IMG/VR virus record: IMGVR_UViG_3300020187_002787
Location: 1-34,912 of that record
DNA length: 34,912 nt
Strand: one strand, 5' to 3'
From: a virus
The notes beneath the pieces were generated by a model. That model saw only the letters and a program-made list of their open reading frames with translations. It ran no database searches and was not told the origin of the DNA. Of this stretch, positions 5,920 through 34,763 are shown piece after piece. A program made the translations under genes and the position numbers. Within the stretch, counting starts at the first letter, position 1; each line of letters starts with the position of its first letter.

Positions 5920-6543
5920 ATGAAAATAAGTTATGCTATAACAGTATGTAATGAGTTTATTGAAATACAAAAACTCCTTTCAGTACTATTGGTTAATAAG
6001 AGAGAACAGGATGAAATTGTAGTTTTGTTTGATAAACAATCCGGAACTTCTGAAGTTTGGGCTTATTTAATTAAGCTAAAAAATGAAGAACGTATTAAAT
6101 TAACTCGTAAATCTTTTAATAATCATTTTGCTGATTGGAAAAACTACTTAACTAGTCTCTGTATAGGTGAATTTATATTTCAAATAGATGCTGATGAAAT
6201 ACCACATCAATCACTTTTAGAACATCTACCTGAAATACTAAAAGGGAACCCTAACAACGAAGTTTACCTGGTTCCTAGAGTAAATACAGTTGAAGGTCTA
6301 ACTCAAGAACATACTACTAAGTGGAGATGGAATATTGACGATGAAGGAAGAGTCAACTGGCCTGATTACCAATGGCGTATTTGGAAAAATAAACCAGATA
6401 TAAAATGGGTTAATAAAGTTCATGAAAGATTAGAAGGGTTTAGAACTTACGCAACACTACCAGCTTATCATGATTTTGCTCTTATGCATCCTAAAACGAT
6501 AGAAAGACAAGAAAAACAGAATAAATATTACGATACTTTATGA
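5920..6543 (+). CDS. GT2-type glycosyltransferase (GT-A fold)
   Basis: A 207-residue protein starting MKISYAITVCNE, the usual first strand of GT2 enzymes, with the metal-binding DxD-like motif in FIFQIDADEIP (residues 84-94). Later WRIWKN and VNKVHERLEG resemble the SunS/GT2 group of small transferases. It is close to the minimal GT-A size. No membrane segment. It overlaps the HAD gene by four bases (ATGA). It probably adds a single sugar to a cytosolic or lipid-linked acceptor. Confidence 0.75.
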   Translation: MKISYAITVCNEFIEIQKLLSVLLVNKREQDEIVVLFDKQSGTSEVWAYLIKLKNEERIKLTRKSFNNHFADWKNYLTSLCIGEFIFQIDADEIPHQSLLEHLPEILKGNPNNEVYLVPRVNTVEGLTQEHTTKWRWNIDDEGRVNWPDYQWRIWKNKPDIKWVNKVHERLEGFRTYATLPAYHDFALMHPKTIERQEKQNKYYDTL

Positions 6544-6842
6544 ATGTATATGTAGATATTGATGATACCATTTGTGATTATGAGTATGGTTGTGATAAAA
6601 TGAAATATAATTTAGCTAGACCTATTCAAATCAATATAAATAAAATAAACAAATTATATTTAGAAGGAAATACGATTACATATTATACTGCTAGAGGGTC
6701 ACTAACTGGGATTGATTGGTATGAAATTACTAAGAATCAAATAGAAGAATGGGGTTGTAAATACCATCATTTAAGTGTAGGAGAAAAACCCCCATATGAC
6801 TTATTAATTTGTGATAAAACAAAAAGAATTGAAGAAATATGA
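6540..6842 (+). CDS. Minimal HAD-superfamily phosphatase-like protein
   Basis: A 100-residue protein with HAD motif I DIDDT (Asp6, Asp8, Asp9), motif II threonine in YYTARG (Thr50), Lys83 in GEKPPYD, and the acidic motif near ICDKT (Asp92). There is no large cap domain, so it is a stripped-down HAD fold similar to the small hydrolase-like proteins found in bacterial capsule loci. In this setting it may remove phosphate from a sugar-phosphate intermediate, such as a nonulosonate phosphate, but the substrate is inferred only. It is flanked by ATGA overlaps on both sides. Confidence 0.7.
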   Translation: MNVYVDIDDTICDYEYGCDKMKYNLARPIQININKINKLYLEGNTITYYTARGSLTGIDWYEITKNQIEEWGCKYHHLSVGEKPPYDLLICDKTKRIEEI

Positions 6843-7540
6843 AAGAACAAATAATAGATAACTTAAATAAGGTAGGAATATGTGTAATAGAAGACTATTT
6901 TACACCCGAATTTTGTGATCAGGCAGTAAAAGATATAGAAGATGGTTTAATAAAATTCAAATCTAAAATTCAATCTGAGTCTAAAGAAGGAACTTCTGGG
7001 GATAAGAGATTATTTAAAATGGAGAATCATTATGACACAGCAAAAACTTTTGCTAATGATTCTTTATTATTAGAAATAGGAAGTGAATATTATGGTTATC
7101 CTTTAATTAGTCATTTTGTTTTAGGAGGCAAAGTTCAGTCTCAATCCAACCAAATAATTAATAGTGGAGGTGGATGGCATCGAGATAATAGAATGAAACA
7201 AATAAAAACTATTGTGTATCTATCAGATGTTGAAGATAAAGATGGTCCCTATTTATTTCTTCCTTCATCTGATCAATTTGATTTATCTACTAGAGATGGG
7301 ATAGGTAAAGCTACAAGATATGAAGATAAAGTTATAGAAGATTTTTGTAGTAATAACAATTTAGAACCCTTTAAAGTAACAGGTAAAAAAGGAACAGTAA
7401 TATTTACTGATACTTCTTATATTCATAGAGGAGCTAATATACAAGATGGTACACGCTACACATATACTAATTATTATTTTGAAAACCATCCCCAAAGAAT
7501 AGCTATTAGCAAAAATGATTGGGGTAAAAACTATATATAA
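6839..7540 (+). CDS. Phytanoyl-CoA dioxygenase (PhyH) family oxygenase
   Basis: A 233-residue Fe(II)/2-oxoglutarate oxygenase. The facial triad is visible as His114-x-Asp116 (WHRDN) and His196 (YIHRGAN), with Arg206 as the likely 2-oxoglutarate-binding base. GPYLFLPSS before residue 145 is the usual PhyH strand. PhyH-type proteins in glycan loci hydroxylate sugars or other small molecules; the substrate here is unknown. It overlaps the HAD gene by four bases and the next gene as TAATG. Confidence 0.85.
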   Translation: MKEQIIDNLNKVGICVIEDYFTPEFCDQAVKDIEDGLIKFKSKIQSESKEGTSGDKRLFKMENHYDTAKTFANDSLLLEIGSEYYGYPLISHFVLGGKVQSQSNQIINSGGGWHRDNRMKQIKTIVYLSDVEDKDGPYLFLPSSDQFDLSTRDGIGKATRYEDKVIEDFCSNNNLEPFKVTGKKGTVIFTDTSYIHRGANIQDGTRYTYTNYYFENHPQRIAISKNDWGKNYI

Positions 7541-8592
7541 TGGCTCATATATTTAAAAAACCAACAGAGGATAATAAAGGGATTATTGTATTTACCCATA
7601 AAGAATGGCCTTGGTTATTAAAAAATGCACAACAAACTCTAATTGATTTAAAACAATATTTTTATCTAGGATGGAATCAAGGTATATATTTTGGTAATAT
7701 TCCCAATATGCCTAACATTGTAGACTTTACATTTGCAAACCCCTCAGTTTTAGATTTTCCAGATAATGGTAACACTTTAAAAATTGAGTTAATGGATAGA
7801 AATTTCTTAACTGATGATTACAAAGATCTAGGGTTAAAAGATAAATTTTATGATATTATATGTGTTAGTAGAGCAGTTAAATGGAAGAATGTTCCCTCCT
7901 TACTACAGGGGTTAAGAAAATTATATGATGAAGGTAAGTATTATAAAACTTTAATAGTAATCCCTAAGGCAGAAAATGAAACAGTTGAACATTTTGATAC
8001 TGATATTGTAAAAAAATATGAAGAAATGTTTAATTATGAAGAAAGAAAAAACATAACTTTATTAAGAATATCTAGTGAATTAGGTTTTTTAGGGATTTCA
8101 CCTCAAACTATAAATTGGTTTTATAATAATTCTAAAGTATTATACATTGGATCAAAATCAGAAGGTGGGTGTAGAGTAACACATGAAGCTTTACTCTGTG
8201 GGTGTAATATAGTATATTATAAAAACCATCAAGGGCCTATGGTAGATTATTTGACAAAAGAAAATAGTACACCTTTTAATGATTATAATTCAGTAAATCT
8301 GGCATTAGAAGAAGCAATTAAATCTTATGAATATAATCCAACAAGAAAAGATAAATATGAAAAATTATTAAGTGAAAGATATGCCGAAGAAAAATTAGTC
8401 CCTCATTTTAAAAAATTATATTCTAAAAATGGCTATAAATTTGATGGGAAATTAATTAATTGTGATAATTTATCAAATAGACTCCCAGCTCACTATTTAG
8501 ATGTCCCTTGGAATCACCCAACAGAACCAACAGCAGATATAAAATCCAATGAACAGTTAGTAAATTTTATAACACATATAAATAATGGATAA
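7540..8592 (+). CDS. GT-B glycosyltransferase
   Basis: A 350-residue protein. The donor half carries CVSRAVKWKNVPSLLQGL near 108-125 (a GT4 switch-like segment) and the EX7E motif E208-GGCRVTH-E216, followed by CGCNIVYYKN. The N-terminal half is short and lacks the usual Gly-rich loop, so the acceptor domain is reduced. No membrane anchor. It begins in a TAATG overlap with the oxygenase and ends eight bases inside the methyltransferase gene. Confidence 0.75.
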   Translation: MAHIFKKPTEDNKGIIVFTHKEWPWLLKNAQQTLIDLKQYFYLGWNQGIYFGNIPNMPNIVDFTFANPSVLDFPDNGNTLKIELMDRNFLTDDYKDLGLKDKFYDIICVSRAVKWKNVPSLLQGLRKLYDEGKYYKTLIVIPKAENETVEHFDTDIVKKYEEMFNYEERKNITLLRISSELGFLGISPQTINWFYNNSKVLYIGSKSEGGCRVTHEALLCGCNIVYYKNHQGPMVDYLTKENSTPFNDYNSVNLALEEAIKSYEYNPTRKDKYEKLLSERYAEEKLVPHFKKLYSKNGYKFDGKLINCDNLSNRLPAHYLDVPWNHPTEPTADIKSNEQLVNFITHINNG

Positions 8593-9175
8593 AGTAGAAA
8601 TAGAAAAAGCAAAATATGAAGAAGTCCATTCTAGAACTTTTGGTTATGGTTTAGGATTAAGGCAAGTAAATGATTTAAAAAACGAATCATATGACTTTTC
8701 AAAACGTTTTAATGAAATTATTAAACAATCTGATACTTGTTTAGATATAGCTTGTGGAGGTGGAACTATCATGGATTATGTAGATTATTTAGGTTGTACC
8801 CCTACAGGTATAGATATAAGTGAAAGCGCAATTAAAAAAGTGGATAAATCCTATACTACTAAAGTAGGAAGTTGCCACCAACTACCATTTAAAGATAATC
8901 AATTTGATTTAGTTTACTTTTTAGATGGGATGGAACACATTCCCCTTGAAATTGAAAGCGAAGCTATCCATGAATCATTTAGAGTATCTAAAAATTTTGT
9001 ATGTCATGCTATTGCTTTAGAAAGTAGTATACACTTTGGGGAGGAATTACATTGTAATTTAAAAGACCCTGAAGAATGGAGAGAAATTATAAATAAAATA
9101 TCAAATAAACTAGGATGGAACGAAGAAATGTATTATCTTAGAAATAATACAGTACACTTAATATACAAAAGATGA
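8585..9175 (+). CDS. Class I SAM-dependent methyltransferase
   Basis: A 196-residue methyltransferase. Motif I is CLDIACGGG (residues 52-60), the acidic residue of strand 2 is in GIDIS (Asp77), and the later FDLVYFLDGMEHIP is the Methyltransf_11-type motif. FRVSKNFV follows as the conserved helix-strand. It probably O- or N-methylates a sugar or nucleotide-sugar made by the surrounding genes; the substrate is inferred from neighbourhood. It overlaps the NeuB gene by four bases. Confidence 0.8.
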   Translation: MDKVEIEKAKYEEVHSRTFGYGLGLRQVNDLKNESYDFSKRFNEIIKQSDTCLDIACGGGTIMDYVDYLGCTPTGIDISESAIKKVDKSYTTKVGSCHQLPFKDNQFDLVYFLDGMEHIPLEIESEAIHESFRVSKNFVCHAIALESSIHFGEELHCNLKDPEEWREIINKISNKLGWNEEMYYLRNNTVHLIYKR

Positions 9176-9984
9176 AAGTAAAGATAATAGGAGAAATAGG
9201 AATAAATCATAATGGTGATTTAAATTTGTGTAAAAAAATTATAGATGCTGCAGTTCTATCGGGGTGTGATTATGTTAAATTCCAAAAACGTAACCCTGAT
9301 GTTTGTGTTCCTGAAGAACAGAAATCTAAACCAAAATCTACCCCTTGGGGAGATATGACTTATTTAGACTATAAATATAAAGTAGAATTTAATAAAGAAG
9401 AGTACGATGAAATAGATCGCTACTGTAAAGAAAAAGGTATTGGATGGTTTGCTTCTGTATGGGATAAAGATTCAGTAGACTTTATGTCTCAATACAATAA
9501 TATTTCAAAAATACCCTCTGCCTTAATCACTAATAAGGAGTTAGTAAAATATGCTAGAAGTAAATTTGATTATTTAATTATATCAACAGGTATGTCTACT
9601 GAGGAAGAAATTGAGAAAGCAATAGAATATAGCAACCCCGATGTAATAATGCATACTAACTCAACATATCCCTCTCCTATTGAAGAATTAAATTTAGAGT
9701 ATATTCATTGGTTAAAAAAACATGGTAAAGAAGTAGGATATAGTGGTCATGAATATGGTTTAGTAACTACATTTGCAACTATTCCTATGGGTGTTACATG
9801 GATTGAACGCCATATTACTTTAGATAGAACAATGTGGGGATCAGATCAAGTGGCATCCGTAGAACCTGCTGGTCTTATTAAATTAGTAAAAGGGATAAGA
9901 GATATAGAAAAATCACTTGGAGGAAATTCACAAAGACAATTACTAAAAAGTGAATTAAGTAAAAGAAAATCACTAAGGGGTTAA
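9172..9984 (+). CDS. NeuB-like nonulosonic (sialic) acid synthase, lacking the C-terminal SAF domain
   Basis: A 270-residue synthase expected to condense phosphoenolpyruvate with an N-acyl hexosamine to give a sialic-acid-type nine-carbon sugar. The TIM-barrel signatures are GEIGINHNGD (residues 7-16), DYVKFQKR (33-40), STGMST (138-143), HTNSTYPSP (161-169), GYSGHEYG (189-196) and IERHITLDR with GSDQVAS (211-229). Typical NeuB proteins are about 340-350 residues with a C-terminal antifreeze-like SAF domain that closes the dimer active site. Here the chain ends soon after the barrel. In the late motif, DQ replaces the more usual DH. It is followed directly by the NeuA gene (TAATG). Confidence 0.85.
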   Translation: MKVKIIGEIGINHNGDLNLCKKIIDAAVLSGCDYVKFQKRNPDVCVPEEQKSKPKSTPWGDMTYLDYKYKVEFNKEEYDEIDRYCKEKGIGWFASVWDKDSVDFMSQYNNISKIPSALITNKELVKYARSKFDYLIISTGMSTEEEIEKAIEYSNPDVIMHTNSTYPSPIEELNLEYIHWLKKHGKEVGYSGHEYGLVTTFATIPMGVTWIERHITLDRTMWGSDQVASVEPAGLIKLVKGIRDIEKSLGGNSQRQLLKSELSKRKSLRG

Positions 9985-10619
9985 TGGTAGCAATTGTTCC
10001 AATTCGTTCTGGGTCTAAAGGTATACCTAATAAAAATATAAAATTATTAAATGGTAAGCCTCTAGTTTGGTGGGTATTAAATTCCTTACAAAATTCTAAT
10101 GTATACAAGATAATTGTAGCAACTGATATTGAATATGTAGATTTAATTTTATCATTCAACTTAAGCAAAGTAGAAGTATACCAAAGAGATTCTAATAATT
10201 CAAAAGATAAATCCTCAACTGAAGATGTATTAATAGAAGTTATAAAAAACCTACAATTGAATGAGGATGTAATGTTAGTCCAGGCAACCTCTCCTTTAAC
10301 TAGTTATAAAGATTTTAATGGGGCTATTGAATTTTATACAGGTTATGATAGTGTTTTATCTGTTGTTAAACAAAAGAGATTTATTTGGGATAGTAAAGGA
10401 AATTCCTTAAATTATAACTATAATAATAGACCTAGAAGACAAGATTGGGGTGGGTACCTAGTTGAAAACGGAGCATTTTACATAAATCACAGTTCTGATA
10501 TACTTGAAAATAAAAATAGGTTAAGTGGAAACATAGGATGTTATGAAATGGATGAAAAAACATATTATGAAATAGACTCTTTAGATGATTGGAAAATAAT
10601 AGAAAATTTAAATAAATGA
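9984..10619 (+). CDS. NeuA-like CMP-nonulosonate (CMP-sialic acid) synthetase
   Basis: A 211-residue nucleotidyltransferase expected to couple CTP with the NeuB product. It starts AIVPIRSGSKGIPNKN, the pyrophosphorylase loop with Arg8 and Lys12. VQATSPL (99-105), RRQDWGG (151-157), ENGAFYI (161-167) and EIDSLDDW (196-203) match successive NeuA motifs. The length is near the core NeuA domain, with no appended esterase domain. Position is decisive: NeuB immediately upstream and a GT29-like sialyltransferase overlapping by four bases downstream. Confidence 0.85.
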   Translation: MVAIVPIRSGSKGIPNKNIKLLNGKPLVWWVLNSLQNSNVYKIIVATDIEYVDLILSFNLSKVEVYQRDSNNSKDKSSTEDVLIEVIKNLQLNEDVMLVQATSPLTSYKDFNGAIEFYTGYDSVLSVVKQKRFIWDSKGNSLNYNYNNRPRRQDWGGYLVENGAFYINHSSDILENKNRLSGNIGCYEMDEKTYYEIDSLDDWKIIENLNK

Positions 10620-11284
10620 AAGTAAAAATTAATAATCAAGAACATAATTTAGTTTTAAATTATAACCCCTCTCTTTTATTAGATCTTAAAGATAAAAAAA
10701 TAGCAGTTGTAGGTAGTAGTGGGATATTATTAGATAAAGAATATGGGGAAGAAATTGATAAACATGATTATATAGTACGATTTAATGTAGCTAGAGTTAA
10801 AGGTTTTGAAAAAAATGTAGGTTCTAGAACGGACATTAGATTTTTTAATGGTCATGCTTTCGCTGGAACCTCTGACCCTCAAAGATTTAAAAAAAACGAT
10901 CCTAATTATGTTTCTAATCTTAATGATGAATTACTAATAGTAAAATCGTGGAACGAAAGAGAAATGATGATGGGGATGATAAAAAATACCCCACAAAATA
11001 AAGTTTTATTTGTTAATCCACCCTTTACACAATATTGTAATTCATTAGTAAAAGATACAGAAGCCACTTGTGGTTTAGTTGGAATATCTTTTTTAAACTT
11101 ATTTACAACCAATATATCATGTTATGGTTTTACTCATTACCAAGAAGATAGATCTAGAATTCATTATTGGGAAGAAGTAGGAGATGCGGATAATTGGAAG
11201 TTAGGCCAAAGTCATTCTTTTAATCATGAAGAACAAGTATTTAAAGAATATGAAAAATTGGGTTTAATTAAAATGTATAAATAA
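10616..11284 (+). CDS. GT29-type (eukaryotic-like) sialyltransferase
   Basis: A 222-residue protein with the sialylmotifs of CAZy family GT29. A motif-L-like block runs over residues 27-78: KIAVVGSSGILL, YGEEIDKHDYIVRFN (43-57) and NVGSRTDIRFFN (67-78), equal in pattern to the vertebrate VVGNSG...G..ID.HD.V.R.N...G...DVG..T. A motif-S-like block is TCGLVGISFLNLF (151-163) followed by CYGF, and a motif-VS-like HYWE lies at 183-186. It is shorter than animal enzymes because the membrane anchor and stem are absent. Together with NeuB and NeuA this forms a make-activate-transfer cassette. Confidence 0.8.
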   Translation: MKVKINNQEHNLVLNYNPSLLLDLKDKKIAVVGSSGILLDKEYGEEIDKHDYIVRFNVARVKGFEKNVGSRTDIRFFNGHAFAGTSDPQRFKKNDPNYVSNLNDELLIVKSWNEREMMMGMIKNTPQNKVLFVNPPFTQYCNSLVKDTEATCGLVGISFLNLFTTNISCYGFTHYQEDRSRIHYWEEVGDADNWKLGQSHSFNHEEQVFKEYEKLGLIKMYK

Positions 11285-11946
11285 TGAAATTAACTATATC
11301 AATAGATGATGTAAACCCTAAAAAAAATTGGCGTATTTTAGGTGAAAAAACCGAGGGTTGGATGAGGGATTTACATGAAACCTATGGGGTTAAATATAAT
11401 TTATTTATCCCTTCAAATCATCATAATAATGCCCCTATATCCCAAAACAAAGAATGGGTTAAAGAATTAGAAGAAACAGGAATGTTTGAACTATCCGCCC
11501 ATGGTCATTATCATAATACAAGTGATAAAAATAAGTTTGGGGAAATGGAATTTGTTGATATGAATGAACAACAATGTGTTGAAAGAATTAAATTAATGAT
11601 GGGAGAATGGGAAAAGGTAGAATACAAACCCAAAGGGTGGAGAAACCCAGGATGGTTATGTCAACCTTACTGTGTTCAACATTTATCTAAGGAATTTGAA
11701 TGGGCTGCTTTACATTACGAACATAATCAAAATTTTAAATGGGATCTAAAAATGATATTTGGTGCAGATGGAATTCATGAAGTTGATATTAAATCACATG
11801 ATGATAATATAATGTTTCAATCCCATATATATGGATCTTGGAATAAAAATGAATGGACCCAATCTAACTATGAGCAACTTAAGTTAAGTTTAGATTATTT
11901 ATTTAATAATCTTCCAATAACACCTTCAACAATATCCGAATTATGA
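11284..11946 (+). CDS. Polysaccharide deacetylase-like (CE4/NodB) protein
   Basis: A 220-residue hydrolase fold. Motif 1 is SIDDV (Asp8, Asp9), motif 2 is the H-x3-H of SAHGHYH (His73 and His77), and motif 3 is WRNPGW near 121-126. This is the metal-dependent NodB arrangement, which removes N- or O-acetyl groups from sugars. It has no signal peptide, so it would act in the cytosol on a precursor rather than on finished wall polymer. Its start overlaps the sialyltransferase stop (TAATG), hinting at a linked step. Confidence 0.75.
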   Translation: MKLTISIDDVNPKKNWRILGEKTEGWMRDLHETYGVKYNLFIPSNHHNNAPISQNKEWVKELEETGMFELSAHGHYHNTSDKNKFGEMEFVDMNEQQCVERIKLMMGEWEKVEYKPKGWRNPGWLCQPYCVQHLSKEFEWAALHYEHNQNFKWDLKMIFGADGIHEVDIKSHDDNIMFQSHIYGSWNKNEWTQSNYEQLKLSLDYLFNNLPITPSTISEL

Positions 11947-12842
11947 AAATAGCATTTTTTACAGAAATGGGTTTTAATGGTAAAATTCCAAGAAATCATA
12001 ATAATATGAGAACAGAATTTGCTTGGATGGTTGCTTTAAATGCTGATCATTATAATTTAAACCAAACCCCAAAAGAAGAATATGATTTAGGTATAGTAAT
12101 TACCCCTAAAAATACCCCCGATAATGTTGAAATTTCGAATATTAAACGTTTTTGTGATAAAGTAGGTATAATGCAAGAAGGACCATTTTGGTACTTCCAA
12201 GATTATGATTTATCTAAACAAATAACCTATTTTAATAATCTGATGGCTGCTGATATAATATTTGCCCATAATCAGGTTGATGTTGAATATTTTAAAGGTT
12301 TAACTAATCATAATAATATAAAATTATTACCTTCTTTAATGATTGAAGATCCTATTAAAAATATAACACCTTTAAGTAAACGTTCTGGAGTTATGGTAGG
12401 TGGAAATTTTAAAAGTTGGTATGGTGGTTTTGATTCCTTTATGTTAGCTAGTAGTATAACAAATGAAATATATTCACCCCAAATGGGTAGAAGAAGTGAT
12501 GGTGAAGAACAATTAGGTATAACTCAACTCCCATATCTAGAATGGAATGAATGGATATCAGAACTTAGTAAAAGAAAAATTGGGGTACATATGATGAGAA
12601 CCCATGCTGCTGGTACATTTGCTTTAAATTGTTCTTATTTAGGTATACCTTGTATAGGATATAAAGGGTTAGATACTCAAAGAATACTACACCCTGAATT
12701 AAGTGTAAATGATGGGGATTTAGAAACAGCAAGAAAATTATTAAACAGGTTGGATACGGACAAAGAATTTTATACATTATGTTCAAATATCACCCTAAAA
12801 AATTATAAAGAATTTTATCACGAATCAAAATTTAAAATATGA
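11943..12842 (+). CDS. Putative GT-B-like glycosyltransferase
   Basis: A 299-residue protein with a Rossmann-like start (MKIAFFTEMGFNGKIPRNHNN) and a late segment GVHMMRTHAAGTFALNCSYLG followed by IPCIGYKGLDTQ, which resembles the donor-side helix and strand of GT-B enzymes. There is no clear EX7E motif. GVMVGGNFKSWYGG near residue 150 looks like the start of a second Rossmann domain. Family assignment is inferred from fold-like features and its place between a deacetylase and a GT2 enzyme, with four-base overlaps on each side. Confidence 0.6.
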   Translation: MKIAFFTEMGFNGKIPRNHNNMRTEFAWMVALNADHYNLNQTPKEEYDLGIVITPKNTPDNVEISNIKRFCDKVGIMQEGPFWYFQDYDLSKQITYFNNLMAADIIFAHNQVDVEYFKGLTNHNNIKLLPSLMIEDPIKNITPLSKRSGVMVGGNFKSWYGGFDSFMLASSITNEIYSPQMGRRSDGEEQLGITQLPYLEWNEWISELSKRKIGVHMMRTHAAGTFALNCSYLGIPCIGYKGLDTQRILHPELSVNDGDLETARKLLNRLDTDKEFYTLCSNITLKNYKEFYHESKFKI

Positions 12843-14020
12843 AAATATCATTAATCCAACCAGGAAGAAATAATCTTAAATACTTAAAATGGTCTTATGA
12901 TTCTATTCGTAAAAATCAAGGAGAACATGAAGTAGAAATTTGTGTTGCTGATGACGCCTCAACAGATGGAACTTGGGATTGGTGTTTAGAAATGATGGAT
13001 AAAGATCCCTTATTTAAAGCTCATCGCAATGAAGGTCCAGATAGATTAGGACATACCATATTATATGATACATTAATAAATGACGTTGCTACAAAGGACA
13101 TAGCAATGATTTACCATGCTGATATGTATTTATGTCCTAATGCGTTAACTTCAATTGAAAAACACATTAAACCAGGTACAATTGTATCTTTAACTCGAAT
13201 TGAACCCCCTTTACATCCTCAAGGACCTGAAAAAGTTTTATGGAATGGTGGAGTTGAACCTGAAGAATTTAAGGAGCAAGATTTATTAGACAAGTTAAAA
13301 GAATTTACTGATGTAGATAAAATAACAGGTGGTATATTTGCACCTTGGGCTTTTTATAGAAAAGACTTTCAAGAAATAGGAGGACATGACCCATTATATG
13401 CTCCCCAATCAAAAGAAGATTCTGATATATTCAATAGATTTCAGTTAAATGGTATTAAGTTTATCCAAACATGGGAAGGATTTGTTTATCATATGACTTG
13501 TAGAGGTAGTAGACGTAATGTATTAGATAAAGCTAAAAACATATATGAAGACAGCCCAGAATGGTTAGCACAAAACCAAAGATCAACCCGTAATTTTATA
13601 CGTAAATGGGGTCATTTTGTAATGCATGATCCTACCTTAATACCTATTGTTCCACCTAAATACAGTGTGGGAATAATAATTACTAATTGTAATGCCCAAT
13701 TATTAGAATTATTAGAACCCTGGGCAGAAAATGTTTATATAGGTAATTATAATTTATTATCAATTCCTTATTTTGAAAAGGAAAAAAATAATACAACTTA
13801 TGATTTAAGTAAAAGGGTTTTACCTTATGATAATGAAAAAAATAATGAAATATTAGTTGAAGTAGACCCGATATCATTTAACCAAGAAGACTTTACTAAC
13901 ATACAACGTTTCTCTCAAATTATACAACATAACGGGGAAACAGGTAGTTTTGAACTTGGTAATTTAAAAATTAATATAATTCAAATGAATGAATACCAAA
14001 ACTCTTTAATTAATTTATGA
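12839..14020 (+). CDS. GT2 glycosyltransferase with extra C-terminal domain
   Basis: A 393-residue protein. Residues 1-230 or so form a GT-A domain with LIQPGRNNLKYLKWSYDSI, the nucleotide-binding VADDASTDGTWDW near 37-49, and a DxD-like HADM near residue 97; GGIFAPWAFYRKDF is the acceptor-side segment. The last 120 or so residues (from SVGIIITNCNAQ) form a separate Asn-rich domain without a motif I recognise. Soluble, with no membrane spans. It overlaps both neighbours by four bases. Confidence 0.8.
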   Translation: MKISLIQPGRNNLKYLKWSYDSIRKNQGEHEVEICVADDASTDGTWDWCLEMMDKDPLFKAHRNEGPDRLGHTILYDTLINDVATKDIAMIYHADMYLCPNALTSIEKHIKPGTIVSLTRIEPPLHPQGPEKVLWNGGVEPEEFKEQDLLDKLKEFTDVDKITGGIFAPWAFYRKDFQEIGGHDPLYAPQSKEDSDIFNRFQLNGIKFIQTWEGFVYHMTCRGSRRNVLDKAKNIYEDSPEWLAQNQRSTRNFIRKWGHFVMHDPTLIPIVPPKYSVGIIITNCNAQLLELLEPWAENVYIGNYNLLSIPYFEKEKNNTTYDLSKRVLPYDNEKNNEILVEVDPISFNQEDFTNIQRFSQIIQHNGETGSFELGNLKINIIQMNEYQNSLINL

Positions 14021-14835
14021 TAGGAATTATAGGACAGGGATTTGTAGGTAATGCAATTTATCAAAAGTTTAAAAATTATTTCGAAGTAAAAACTTACGAT
14101 ATAATAGAAGATAAAAGTAATTCTACAAAAATTAAGACCATGAGTCAAGATATAGTGTTTGTTTGTTTACCTACTCCTATGAATAGAAGAGGTAGATGTG
14201 ATACTAGTTTAATTGAATCCACAGTAAAAGAAATTTTCACAACCTTTAAATGTAAAACTGTGGTTATTAAATCTACAGTACCACCTGGAACTACAGCAAA
14301 AATAAATTCATTATATCCTAATATGGATGTAGTATTTAACCCTGAATTTTTAACTGAAGCAAATGCTGTAGAAGATTTTAATAATCAAAATAGAGTAATT
14401 TTAGGAGGACCTAGAAATTCTACTACTAAATTAAAAACTATATATAGAAAAATATTTCCTGATATTGATATTATAAAAACTGGATCTACTCATGCTGAGA
14501 TGGTAAAATATCTTACAAATACTTTTCTAGCTACTAAGGTGGCATTTGCTAATGAAATGTATCAAATATGTGAGGGATTAAAACTAGATTATGATAAAGT
14601 AATTGAATATTCAACTTTTGATAAAAGATTAGGAAAATCACATTGGGCAGTACCTGGACCTGATGGTGATTTTGGTTATGGTGGTCATTGCTTCCCCAAA
14701 GACCTTTCGGCAATGTTACGTTTAGCGGATGATTTAGAAACGGTAGATAATGTTTTAAATGCAGTACAATCAACAAATGATTTAGTTAGAAAAAACCGAG
14801 ATTGGGAAAAAATGAAAGGAAGAGCTATAGTTTGA
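14017..14835 (+). CDS. UDP-sugar 6-dehydrogenase-like protein (short)
   Basis: A 272-residue NAD-dependent dehydrogenase of the UDP-glucose/GDP-mannose/UDP-ManNAc family, expected to oxidise a nucleotide sugar to its uronic acid. The NAD-binding loop is GIIGQGFVG (3-11), VFVCLPTPM lies at 47-55, KSTVPPGTT at 85-93, FNPEFLTEA near 107-115, the catalytic-lysine helix EMVKYLTN at 161-168, and the active-site cysteine is Cys225 in GGHCFPKD. Full-length family members are about 400 residues. The C-terminal UDP-binding domain is missing. It closes the glycan operon. Confidence 0.8.
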   Translation: MIGIIGQGFVGNAIYQKFKNYFEVKTYDIIEDKSNSTKIKTMSQDIVFVCLPTPMNRRGRCDTSLIESTVKEIFTTFKCKTVVIKSTVPPGTTAKINSLYPNMDVVFNPEFLTEANAVEDFNNQNRVILGGPRNSTTKLKTIYRKIFPDIDIIKTGSTHAEMVKYLTNTFLATKVAFANEMYQICEGLKLDYDKVIEYSTFDKRLGKSHWAVPGPDGDFGYGGHCFPKDLSAMLRLADDLETVDNVLNAVQSTNDLVRKNRDWEKMKGRAIV

Positions 14836-24393: not shown

Positions 24394-24530
24394 CAAAATC
24401 AGAAAAAATCAAAGAAATCACCAGTAAAATCCTTGAATTAAAAAAATTAGGAAATAAGGTTGATACTAAAAAAGCAATCCAAAACTTACAAAGAGAAATG
24501 GATGAATTAACTTATAAAAATGGGTTTTAA
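24390..24530 (+). CDS. Small coiled-coil protein, 46 residues
   Basis: Starting at ATG 24390 (an ATGA-type overlap with the previous stop), the product is a single amphipathic helix rich in Lys, Glu, Ile and Leu (EKIKEITSKILELKKLG; AIQNLQREMDEL) with heptad spacing. A longer frame from 24321 lies in the wrong frame of the membrane gene and is rejected. It overlaps the cytidylyltransferase start by 11 bases. Function unknown. Confidence 0.55.
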   Translation: MTKSEKIKEITSKILELKKLGNKVDTKKAIQNLQREMDELTYKNGF

Positions 24531-24945
24531 AAAAGGTGTTATAGCAGGTAATTTTGATGTATACCATCCCGGGTATGTTCAAATGTTAAAAGAAGCAAAA
24601 GGTAAATGTGATTGTCTTATTATATTACTTCATACTGATCCTTCAATTGAAAGAAAGGATAAAATAAAACCCATATTATCCCCTGATGAACGTAAAGAAA
24701 TGTTATTAAGTATTAGATATGTTGATGATGTAGTTCGATATACCTATGAAGAACAATTGTATGATTTGCTTAGAATGGGGGAATTTGATGTTAGGTTTTT
24801 AGGTGATGATTATATAGATAAACCATTTACCGGAGATACCTTAGATATTAAAATAGAATATCTAAATAGAAGCCATGGGTGGTCAACAACTAAATATAAA
24901 AATTTAATATATGAATCTGTATTCGAATATAATACGCAACGGTGA
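24520..24945 (+). CDS. Cytidylyltransferase-like (TagD/RfaE-type) protein
   Basis: A 141-residue nucleotidyltransferase. VIAGNFDVYHPGYVQML (7-23) is the glycerol-3-phosphate cytidylyltransferase HxGH site, but the second His is replaced by Tyr (HPGY). RYVDDVVRY (66-74), FLGDDY (93-98) and NRSHGWSTTK (116-125), corresponding to the R-x-x-x-x-STT motif, are all present. It should attach a nucleotide to a polyol or sugar phosphate, perhaps making an activated glycan precursor; the Tyr substitution lowers certainty about activity. Confidence 0.75.
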   Translation: MGFKKGVIAGNFDVYHPGYVQMLKEAKGKCDCLIILLHTDPSIERKDKIKPILSPDERKEMLLSIRYVDDVVRYTYEEQLYDLLRMGEFDVRFLGDDYIDKPFTGDTLDIKIEYLNRSHGWSTTKYKNLIYESVFEYNTQR

Positions 24946-31182: not shown

Positions 31183-31944
31183 CTATAAATTGTAGAAACT
31201 TCTAATTTCACATTCTGTAAGCGATCCATTAGACATACCTATATCATCTAAATTACCATTGAAGTGATACCAATTACCATTCCCCATCCATGTTTCCCCA
31301 ATAGTGAAATGACTTGGTAGTGTGTTTAATGTAATATTTGTTTGGGTTAGGTTTACTAATATGGAATTGACGTAAAATTTAATAACCCCATCATCATAAC
31401 TAAGAGCTACATGGGACCATTCATCATATTCCAGTGTATATCCACTATAGAAACTCTCTTCTTCCATTTGAAAATGAATTTCTCCATTATTCAATATTTG
31501 GAATCTAAAAATACTATTTAAATCATCACCATCCCATCTACTTATGATAGTACTTGGTCTTTCTTCATATGGGGAAGGTTTTATTTGAGGTTTAACCCAA
31601 GCTAATAATGTAAAAGAATTAACATCCATAATACTGTCATATGGTGTTATTAATATATCATCCCTTTCTCCCCATGATGGGTTATCAGTTATATCAAATT
31701 TGTAAGAAGAATTAATAGAATCATGTCTATCATAATCTAATTCAGCTTCATACACGGTTGCGTGTAAATCATTTCCACTTTCATCATTGGAATTGTTATT
31801 GAATGGATACCATACAATTAAGTCACTACTAATACTCGGGGTTTCTTCTAATATAGCTATTTCCTCTTCTAAAGATGTCATCTCCAAATATGGGTCTTCA
31901 CATCCTAGTAAGAATATAGCTAATAAAAATAACATTTTTTTCAT
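31183..31944 (-). CDS. LamG/concanavalin-like lipoprotein
   Basis: A 253-residue protein with a type II signal peptide: KKMLFLLAIFLLGC, Cys15 as the lipidation site followed by EDP. The mature chain has an acidic linker and then a LamG/concanavalin A-like domain: LIVWYPFNNNSNDESGNDL (43-61), a SFTLLAWVKPQ strand, DEWSHVALSYDDGVIKFYVN, and NGNLDDIGMSN. The layout is the usual Bacteroidetes LamG lipoprotein. It would be exported to the outer membrane, where it may bind a glycan. It is the last gene of the minus-strand operon. Possible roles: superinfection exclusion or host-surface alteration, inferred only. Confidence 0.8.
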   Translation of the reverse strand: MKKMLFLLAIFLLGCEDPYLEMTSLEEEIAILEETPSISSDLIVWYPFNNNSNDESGNDLHATVYEAELDYDRHDSINSSYKFDITDNPSWGERDDILITPYDSIMDVNSFTLLAWVKPQIKPSPYEERPSTIISRWDGDDLNSIFRFQILNNGEIHFQMEEESFYSGYTLEYDEWSHVALSYDDGVIKFYVNSILVNLTQTNITLNTLPSHFTIGETWMGNGNWYHFNGNLDDIGMSNGSLTECEIRSFYNL

Positions 31945-31947
31945 AAT

Positions 31948-32940
31948 CTATAAATTTAATATTTGTTTTAATCTTCTTATAGTAGAGGCCTTATCATAAC
32001 ATAACCAATCTCTTACATACCACACTAAGAATTTTCTACTTAATTCTTTATTGAACCAACTTAAATCATTTTTGTATCTATTTAAATCTACAATTTGTCG
32101 TAGTTCTTTACATACCCATCTATACTCAGGACACCCAAAGGTAATCATAGGAACATCATACATCATACATTCTATACCAGCAGTACTATTTTCTATTATT
32201 GCTAATTTAGTTTTAGGTAAAATAGTATGTAAGTCCATCATACCAGATATAACAGTATGACCTAATGCTTCCCATCTTAATATTTTAGCATGTATTGATT
32301 TTAAATAATCCCCTTTTGATCTGTCTATTAAAAATGGGTGTAATTTAATAACAATATGGTCCTTACTATCTAATCTATCTATAATCCTATCTATATCTAC
32401 CATATGATTTTGAAAAGAAAAATGACACACCGAAGTATCACCAGGCATTTGCCCTACTATTAATATATGGTTATCAGGAATATTACTATTTTCTTCAAAT
32501 TCATATACATCATCCCATTTATGTAGTTTATTTTCTTTAATTTTAGATATTTCATTATCCCAATATTCCTTATAATCAGTGTTCTCAAATTGAGGCTTAT
32601 CATAAGCAATAGTAACTCTAGAACTATAACCCAACACATCTATTGAATGATGTTTATTGGTAGGTCCAGTGGGTTTGATGAAAATAACAGATTCGGATTG
32701 GGTAAATCCCTTCTCTTCAATATCTTCAGGATATGTGTGGTTAAAAACATAAAGATCTTTAACATTATCAATAATACCAACTTCCCCTAATTTTTCTTTA
32801 TCCTTTATTTTTAAGTATGGACTAATTCTAATTTTATAACCTAATTCTTTTAATGAAACAATAAGATTATTATATATAATAGCCCAATTTCCGTTTAGAT
32901 TTTGATATTTATATCCTATTAGATTTGCTATTTTACCCAT
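31948..32940 (-). CDS. KpsC/KpsS-like capsule glycosyltransferase
   Basis: A 330-residue protein with the Capsule_synth-type core. IVIKLHPFLIDRS (196-208) contains the conserved KxHP, and AIIENSTAGIECMMYDVP (247-264) followed by MITFGCPEYRW is the donor-site helix and strand seen in the Kdo transferases KpsC and KpsS. These add beta-Kdo from CMP-Kdo to a lipid in capsule assembly. A KdsB-like CMP-Kdo synthetase is encoded at 21382, so donor and transferase may be a pair. Soluble. It lies between the coiled-coil gene and the lipoprotein gene. Confidence 0.65.
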   Translation of the reverse strand: MGKIANLIGYKYQNLNGNWAIIYNNLIVSLKELGYKIRISPYLKIKDKEKLGEVGIIDNVKDLYVFNHTYPEDIEEKGFTQSESVIFIKPTGPTNKHHSIDVLGYSSRVTIAYDKPQFENTDYKEYWDNEISKIKENKLHKWDDVYEFEENSNIPDNHILIVGQMPGDTSVCHFSFQNHMVDIDRIIDRLDSKDHIVIKLHPFLIDRSKGDYLKSIHAKILRWEALGHTVISGMMDLHTILPKTKLAIIENSTAGIECMMYDVPMITFGCPEYRWVCKELRQIVDLNRYKNDLSWFNKELSRKFLVWYVRDWLCYDKASTIRRLKQILNL

Positions 32941-32942
32941 TT

Positions 32943-33350
32943 TTAATAATTGCTTGTCATGTTTGGATTTTGTGCCAATGTCTTTACATTATTTCTAATT
33001 TGTTGGATTTGTGTAAACGCATCCGTAACATTTTTATTGAACACTTTTGCATTTTCCGCAATTTTCCTATTATTCGATTCCGCTAATAAAATCCCATCGC
33101 GTAACTTACCATTAATTTCAGACAAACTTTCATACTGATCTTTCTCCATATTCGACTGAATATCCATTACCAGATCTTCTAAAGTCTTTAAATCATCACT
33201 TAAATCCCCATACCTAATAGAGGAGATATTTGATTGTGATTGATGTCTCGCCAGTAATTCCGTATGTGAAGATTTTACCGAACGTAATAACCTAACCCCA
33301 TATAGTACTCCTACCGATAGTACTCCACCTATAAAATATAATAATTCCAT
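32943..33350 (-). CDS. Membrane-anchored coiled-coil protein
   Basis: A 135-residue protein with one N-terminal transmembrane helix (ELLYFIGGVLSVGVLYGV) and a long soluble helix with heptad-like repeats (DDLKTLEDLVMDIQSNMEK; GILLAESNNRKIAENAKVF; DAFTQIQQIRNNVKTL). The layout resembles inner-membrane spanin or lysis-inhibition-type proteins, but no partner outer-membrane spanin is obvious, although the lipoprotein in the operon could be one. Its ATG lies 26 bases after the promoter core. It overlaps no neighbour. Confidence 0.65.
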   Translation of the reverse strand: MELLYFIGGVLSVGVLYGVRLLRSVKSSHTELLARHQSQSNISSIRYGDLSDDLKTLEDLVMDIQSNMEKDQYESLSEINGKLRDGILLAESNNRKIAENAKVFNKNVTDAFTQIQQIRNNVKTLAQNPNMTSNY

Positions 33351-33875: not shown

Positions 33876-34763
33876 ATGGTTTTAGGAGCAGATAGTGCTT
33901 ATGTCATTAATTTAGAGAGACATAAATTTAGAAAAAAGAGAATTGATCATTTGATTAATAAACTTCAATTAAAAAACATAGAATACGTTCAAGGTATTGA
34001 TAAATTTAATAAAGCCCGAGAGGGTTTTAGTTTTGCTAAAGAAAATTTAGCTGAAAATTTTTGGGATCCTAATGGGTGGTTAAGTTTAGGAATTCTATGT
34101 TGTGCTCTATCACATCGAAAAGCTTGGAAAAAGTTTTTAGATTCTGGGGATGAAGTAGGATTATTTTTAGAAGATGATGTTAAAAATACTTCATATATAC
34201 ATAAATTAGACTTTACTCAAATCAGAAAAGAACTAGATGATAATAAAGATTGGGGGGTAACAATATATGGTAGATATAAAAAAGATATTATTAGAGGAGA
34301 TCAAGTTTCAAACCATTTTTATAACTCACTTAACATTAACAACCAATACTCAGGACATGCTTATTTATTAAATAAAAAAAGTGCGTTATGGTTTTATGAG
34401 AATACTAAGAAAATCCAATATGCCGCTGATATATGTTTAGAATTTTCTCCTTTCAATATTATTACTTTAGATAAATCAATATTTGTACAAAGGCATATTG
34501 AATTTGGTTTTATAGAAAAGGAAAAAAGAGCTAAATATACACATATACAGGAATTTAGTCATACCACTATATCCGAATGTTGGGGGCCTGAATATAATAA
34601 TATGTGGGAATTTGATAAGATTAGAGTATCAAAACATATCCCCGCTATATCTGCAATAGAAAAAATTAAGGATATGAGAGGTAGAAAAATAAAAGGAAAA
34701 GAAATTAGAGTTGGCGATACTAACCGTTTATTTGGGAAAGTTTATAGAAAAAATAAAAAATAA
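33876..34763 (+). CDS. GT25-type glycosyltransferase
   Basis: A 295-residue enzyme with the family-25 pattern: SAYVINLERHKFRKKRID (7-24), ILCCALSHRKAW (73-84) and the metal site GLFLEDDV with Glu99, Asp100 and Asp101. Unlike the copy at 27213, the EDD is intact here. SGHAYLLNKKSALWF near residue 160 is the late family motif. The tail is very basic (MRGRKIKGKEIRV ... KVYRKNKK). It lies 11 bases after the probable virion protein and may glycosylate it. Confidence 0.75.
   Translation: MVLGADSAYVINLERHKFRKKRIDHLINKLQLKNIEYVQGIDKFNKAREGFSFAKENLAENFWDPNGWLSLGILCCALSHRKAWKKFLDSGDEVGLFLEDDVKNTSYIHKLDFTQIRKELDDNKDWGVTIYGRYKKDIIRGDQVSNHFYNSLNINNQYSGHAYLLNKKSALWFYENTKKIQYAADICLEFSPFNIITLDKSIFVQRHIEFGFIEKEKRAKYTHIQEFSHTTISECWGPEYNNMWEFDKIRVSKHIPAISAIEKIKDMRGRKIKGKEIRVGDTNRLFGKVYRKNKK

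Follow-up and report, generated by a model that had tools for sequence, protein, structure and literature searches.

A glycan island on a T4-like marine phage carries a putative make-activate-transfer cassette for a nonulosonic acid with a GT29-family enzyme

The locus and its phage context

The window, by which we mean the whole stretch of DNA analyzed, is a linear IMG/VR virus record of 34.9 kb. It is a piece of a T4-like marine phage genome and encodes a clamp-loader subunit, an exonuclease, and a virion-structural-like gene. Because the exonuclease shares 44% identity with that of Flavobacterium phages and no obvious Shine-Dalgarno sequences were seen by eye at the gene starts, we suspect that the host belongs to the Bacteroidota.

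Twelve open reading frames (ORFs) in the window overlap end to end and form what we refer to here as the glycan island (Table 1). The original prediction had described three overlapping genes, in the order NeuB-NeuA-GT29, as a cassette bounded by positions 9172 and 11284. The gene coordinates and order are exact, the ORFs overlap by 1 or 4 bases, and Pfam profiles place each product in the expected family. The limits of the cassette proved too narrow, however, as the island spans at least positions 5920 to 14835.

Table 1. Features of the glycan island in the window
Feature	Coordinates	Strand	Evidence and remarks
Family 2 glycosyltransferase	5920..6543	+	PF00535 3.4e-9; upstream end of run; 4-base overlap with next ORF
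Mini-HAD phosphatase, 100 aa	6540..6842	+	Phage mini-HAD HMM 2e-30
PhyH-like Fe/2-oxoglutarate dioxygenase	6839..7540	+	PF05721 1.7e-5; synteny in L013
GT-B type glycosyltransferase	7540..8592	+	PF00534 9.8e-9; synteny in L013
SAM-dependent methyltransferase	8585..9175	+	PF08241 3.2e-13; synteny in L013
NeuB-family nonulosonic acid synthase, 270 aa, TIM barrel without SAF	9172..9984	+	PF03102 1.2e-64
NeuA-type CMP-nonulosonate synthetase, 211 aa, RPRRQDW motif	9984..10619	+	PF02348 (CTP_transf_3) 7e-22
GT29-family sialyltransferase-like enzyme, 222 aa	10616..11284	+	PF00777 (Glyco_transf_29) 1.5e-29
DUF2334 polysaccharide-deacetylase-like protein	11284..11946	+	PF10096 7e-10; synteny in L013
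Island protein of unknown family	11943..12842	+	No Pfam match over cut-off; relative in L089
Family 2 glycosyltransferase	12839..14020	+	PF00535 5.1e-9
Shortened UDP-sugar dehydrogenase-like protein, 272 aa	14017..14835	+	TIGR03026 4.9e-60, profile positions 69-296 of 413 only

All seven island genes compared between the window and the viral contig L013 gave dN/dS values of 0.15 to 0.40 (0.17 for NeuB and 0.29 for GT29), and these seven genes are under purifying selection. Shortened dehydrogenase-like proteins such as the one that ends the island recur elsewhere (L046:7138-7995 and L053:11891-12736; 272 to 287 aa across the three) and match only positions ~66 to 298 of the 413-position profile, without the C-terminal domain. 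A second glycan-related cluster lies toward the end of the window. It includes a minus-strand gene at 31183-33350 for a laminin-G-like lectin domain protein with virion-structural PHROG matches, which adjoins a capsule-synthesis-like protein, and a GT25 glycosyltransferase at 33876-34763.

The GT29 enzyme and its relatives

The product of the GT29 ORF matches PF00777 with 103.6 bits (cut-off, 23) over profile positions 55 to 267 of 272. A phmmer search of PDB sequences found ST3Gal1 (8e-12), followed by ST8Sia3, ST6GalNAc2, and ST6Gal1. The AlphaFold2 model (pLDDT 81.5, pTM 0.84) gave 30 Foldseek matches in the PDB at E<1e-3, all of them animal GT29s with TM-scores of 0.58 to 0.68 by query length, and the next match had an E value of 0.024. 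The motifs quoted in the original prediction are present and are kept in close homologues. Across 14 phage proteins with identities as low as 24%, no variation was seen at G44, I47, D51, R55, N57, or G69 (motif L), at G153 (motif S), at H183-Y184 (motif III), or at H200 and E205 (motif VS), so that the catalytic-site histidines are kept; in motif S, the window protein has TCG where ST3Gal1 has STG. Thus, profile significance, predicted fold, and conserved motifs all bear out the family assignment, and on these comparisons the product of 10616-11284 is confirmed as a real GT29 protein.

The phage enzyme shares PF00777, the key residues of motifs L, S, III, and VS, and the predicted fold with ST3Gal1, ST8Sia3, ST6GalNAc2, and ST6Gal1, yet differs from animal GT29s in several respects. 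It is only about 220 aa long, has no visible N-terminal anchor (the N terminus is not hydrophobic by eye), lacks the motif-L cysteine of the aligned animal proteins, is about 20 to 23% identical to the solved animal structures, and is encoded on a phage along with its donor pathway.

The original prediction described this motif set as best known from eukaryotes, but the family is not exclusively eukaryotic. Bacterial GT29s, mainly alphaproteobacterial and without a transmembrane domain or the conserved disulphide cysteines, were reported in 2018 by Petit et al. (PMC5811610), so that the presence of the family in prokaryotes is common ground. In the viral structure library BFVD, the model matched GT29s of giant viruses, herpesviruses, and a poxvirus, as well as one phage protein. 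The latter, A0A6J5NLG3 (492 aa), is already annotated as "Glycosyl transferase family 29 [uncultured Caudovirales phage]"; it shares the phage GT29 domain (structural match, E 1.9e-9) and is known as a GT29 from database annotation only.

Among the genomes sampled, 8 of the 398 from Pseudomonadota and none of the 395 from Bacteroidota had a PF00777 match over the cut-off. The bacterial GT29s were weak matches (E 1e-5 to 2e-13), and most lack HYWE. Phage proteins fall into two groups: class I, which keeps HYWE/HYY, and class II (often ~186 aa and in pairs), which lacks HYWE. Class I proteins score mostly between 1e-24 and 1e-35 on PF00777 (1.8e-16 for the one in L020) and, by this profile measure, match animal GT29 far better than the sampled bacterial GT29s do. 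The best bacterial match found (2.1e-13) is a C-terminal GT29 domain at L217:793-2118, in a 1.4-Mb genome of the same class as G731. Class II GT29-like genes of about 170 to 190 aa, in tandem or multiple copies and without NeuB, were seen in L021, L023, and L025 to L031; several lie on large phage contigs of up to 218 kb.

A tree built after five long-branch rows were dropped separated phage class I and animal GT29s from bacterial and phage class II proteins with support of 100/99.9. The same split fell to 55/75 once further bacterial proteins and a third, incomplete animal row were included, and because support drops with wider sampling, we claim no branching order for animal versus phage GT29s. 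A grouping of bacteria with animals alone was disfavored (AU test, p 0.017, with rows picked after the trees were seen). Descent from alphaproteobacterial GT29s was proposed in 2018 (PMC5811610). In a contrasting reading, which strikes us as improbable, no known prokaryote-associated proteins are closer to animal sialyltransferases than the phage class I GT29s, and the gene moved between early eukaryotes and phages (or the hosts of these phages) instead of descending from the alphaproteobacterial GT29s alone.

NeuB, its partners, and recurrence in other phages

The NeuB domain was found in all 16 aligned phage and bacterial members of the window protein's subfamily and the SAF domain in none, for which reason we do not file the window protein as a canonical Neu5Ac synthase. 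Its TIM barrel stops at residue 270, where NeuA immediately begins, which leaves no room for a hidden SAF domain downstream. K36, K113, H193, and H214, which we take to be metal/PEP residues in view of an alignment, are invariant in the 16 members. Against TIGR03569, the window NeuB scores 206.9 bits (cut-off, 399.65). The subfamily is common, with 58 viral loci, and the window query gave at least 562 bacterial matches, not all of which are necessarily SAF-less.

The 80 closest bacterial loci are mostly from Streptomyces, where 34 of 41 genomes have exactly one NeuB-family gene. The Streptomyces wall polymer is a Kdn-containing teichulosonic acid (PMC11481543, PMC7831098), to which genes SCO4873 to SCO4882 have been tied (PMC13011467). 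In the three bacteria tested (L106, L109, and L164), the SAF-less NeuB follows a NeuA-HAD phosphatase fusion. Taken together, this neighbor, the sole Streptomyces NeuB, and the Kdn wall polymer make a mannose-6-phosphate or mannose route without NeuC likely, and our best guess is that the NeuB product is Kdn, perhaps through the 9-phosphate. Loss of the SAF domain does not in itself prove the Kdn assignment of the NeuB substrate. In Bacteroides thetaiotaomicron and Prymnesium parvum, a Kdn pathway consists of a Kdn-9-P synthase, an HAD phosphatase, and a CMP-Kdn synthetase and needs no NeuC (PMC6200933). These are the same three kinds of steps as proposed for the island; the passages considered mention no accompanying transferase, and the phosphatase relationship is distant.

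NeuB-family genes also occur in other arrangements. Two or three different ones lie on single phage contigs (L067, L069, L076, L077, and L078), some with SAF or cupin/lyxose-isomerase-like tails, and a SAF-less NeuB at L056:8001-9521 is fused to an FkbM methyltransferase domain.

The best solved relatives of the window synthetase are PpNeuA (2e-34) and the CMP-Neu5Ac synthetase 1qwj (4e-31), with KdsB at ~2e-5; by sequence comparison, it is closer to NeuA/CMAS than to KdsB. The mini-HAD, four genes upstream of NeuB, has the motif residues D6xD8xT10, T50, K83, and D92, with catalytic residues invariant in 18 members, and its model has a pLDDT of 88.9.

The original prediction called for a gene-neighbor search for NeuB-NeuA-GT29 in viral metagenomes. 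In the viral records compared here, the whole order is present in L013 and all three families in phage LR756508.1. Record L002 is near-identical to the window. L013 shares the seven-gene order PhyH-GT-MT-NeuB-NeuA-GT29-DUF2334, with proteins 55 to 79% identical to those of the window (GT29, 65%; NeuB, 75%; NeuA, about 59 to 60%). LR756508.1 (484 kb) carries five GT29 genes, NeuA, and a NeuB that is 56% identical. NeuB and/or NeuA accompany GT29 in L014 to L018, L044, and LR756508.1. Among the eight class I GT29 records other than the query's own (L013 to L020), four have NeuB and six have NeuB or NeuA, and no NeuB was found in class II or unplaced GT29 records of the GT29 scan. Profile searches for GT29 relatives found none in genome contigs or plasmids and LR756508.1 as the sole match in the phage GenBank set; PHROGs has no family for GT29 or NeuA and a weak unnamed family for NeuB. 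Most phage contigs with a SAF-less NeuB lack a canonical GT29, so the two are not an obligate pair.

To quantify gene neighborhoods, we compared 46 distinct phage loci carrying a SAF-less NeuB with 1000 shuffles. The mini-HAD lies within three genes of NeuB in 24 loci (shuffle mean, 10; maximum, 18) and directly beside it in 15 (mean, 3.5; maximum, 9). NeuA is within three genes in 24 loci (mean, 11.3; maximum, 21), as is a sialyltransferase-like transferase in 21 (mean, 10.5; maximum, 19). These counts are inflated by related loci, because the shuffle preserves per-locus gene counts and not phylogeny. The transferases near NeuB comprise GT29, a remote GT29-like "GKGPS" group, and a "GGGPS" group, all of which we infer to be nonulosonate transferases. 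Members of the last give weak matches to MptE-like proteins and to CST-I (in two cases, the CST-I match exceeds the cut-off) and are possibly a new phage nonulosonate transferase family. Often, "GGGPS" proteins are encoded directly downstream of the SAF-less NeuB (L062:8828-9604, L075:8828-9616, L066:5720-6502, and relatives).

A proposed pathway and its alternatives

The proposal of a phage-borne make-activate-transfer cassette with a GT29 draws support from the family assignments, the predicted fold, the order and recurrence of the genes, and the selection acting on them. We consider it probable that the core of this T4-like phage island makes a nonulosonic acid, likely of Kdn type, activates it with CMP, and transfers it by GT29, altering a surface glycan. 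The SAF-less NeuB would condense PEP with mannose-6-phosphate, mannose, or a related hexose, the choice of substrate following from the comparisons above, to give a nonulosonate that is probably Kdn or Kdn-9-phosphate. If a phosphate is present, an HAD phosphatase, either that of the island's 6540 gene or one of the host, might remove it. NeuA, by its family, would then convert the nonulosonate to CMP-nonulosonate, and GT29, by family and predicted fold, would transfer it in the host cytoplasm to a candidate acceptor glycan. The other glycosyltransferases of the island may build this acceptor, and its methyltransferase, deacetylase, and dioxygenase may tailor it. The product would most likely mask or alter a surface glycan of the virion or of the infected host's envelope.

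The same cassette could instead serve an N-acylated sialic acid of the Neu5Ac, Leg, or Pse type, if the host, or a NeuC encoded outside the window, provided the ManNAc-type precursor, and we regard this as rather unlikely. The original prediction held that a host precursor is needed since NeuC is not seen; the window indeed has no NeuC, but a SAF-less NeuB may bypass it. Because the window is an incomplete, 35-kb fragment, NeuC could lie elsewhere, and the best NCBIfam subfamilies, NeuB_NnaB for NeuB and PseF for NeuA, also point to an N-acylated sugar, although both matches fall well below cut-off. Of 37 phage records that carry NeuB or a class I GT29, 8 have Epimerase_2 (NeuC family) genes, which lie near NeuB in some related phages. 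However, all five epimerases that were classified, from other NeuB phage contigs, resemble WecB rather than NeuC and would yield UDP-ManNAc instead of free ManNAc, and the whole 484-kb LR756508.1 has no Epimerase_2 match. The absence of SAF also argues against an N-acylated sugar, as the SAF arginine of Neisseria NeuB contacts the N-acetyl group. Whether CMP-Kdo might be the GT29 donor is a separate matter; the GT29 transferases proposed for plant RG-II use this sugar nucleotide. A plant GT29 is reported as a putative RG-II glycosyltransferase (PMC11288761), and the window synthetase has weak KdsB matches. Kdo is nevertheless disfavored, and we hold it to be very unlikely, given that the synthase is of the NeuB family, the synthetase is far nearer NeuA/CMAS than KdsB, and NeuB or NeuA is found in phages with a class I GT29.

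The closest solved structure to the mini-HAD is AfhF of phage HY126, a D-arabinose 1,5-diphosphate phosphatase (E 4e-6, 35% identity), which presumably acts in a phage DNA-hypermodification pathway, as against E 0.02 for Kdn-9-P phosphatases. If the mini-HAD serves DNA hypermodification and not nonulosonate synthesis, the cassette shrinks to NeuB-NeuA-GT29, a reading that has a fair hearing here even if we lean away from it in view of how often, above the shuffles, the gene lies beside or near NeuB. With AfhF as its nearest solved structure, we do not take the mini-HAD to be a certain Kdn-9-P phosphatase and regard a nonulosonate-9-phosphate phosphatase as possible. A heptose-1-phosphate adenylyltransferase-like protein at 24520-24945 (PHROG 7878, 7.7e-33) could, with the AfhF-like HAD, hint at a second sugar-nucleotide route. 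Sporadic spread among phages would fit passive or decaying captured genes without a role, but the frames are intact, the dN/dS values are low, the gene order is conserved in L013 despite protein divergence, and the combination of genes recurs in distant phages, making such decay scarcely credible.

Both GT29 in bacteria (PMC5811610) and phage modification of nonulosonates are already known. Phage-encoded nonulosonate modification enzymes in Acinetobacter likewise alter host-surface nonulosonic acids (PMC12053666, PMC6586298); those enzymes modify a host-made sugar, whereas here the phage itself carries the genes for all three steps, namely, synthesis, activation, and transfer. Our search, which covered an open-access library, found no paper on a phage GT29 or on a phage make-activate-transfer cassette with a GT29.

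If our proposal is correct, a bacterial virus makes and attaches its own sialic-acid-type sugar by means of the enzyme family that animals use. The count of 46 distinct loci for this NeuB subfamily in viruses suggests that decoration with nonulosonates is a strategy to which phages turn repeatedly. The phages also provide small GT29 enzymes, of about 220 aa and with no visible anchor, that are amenable to work in E. coli, and these GT29s bear on the question of the origin of animal sialylation.
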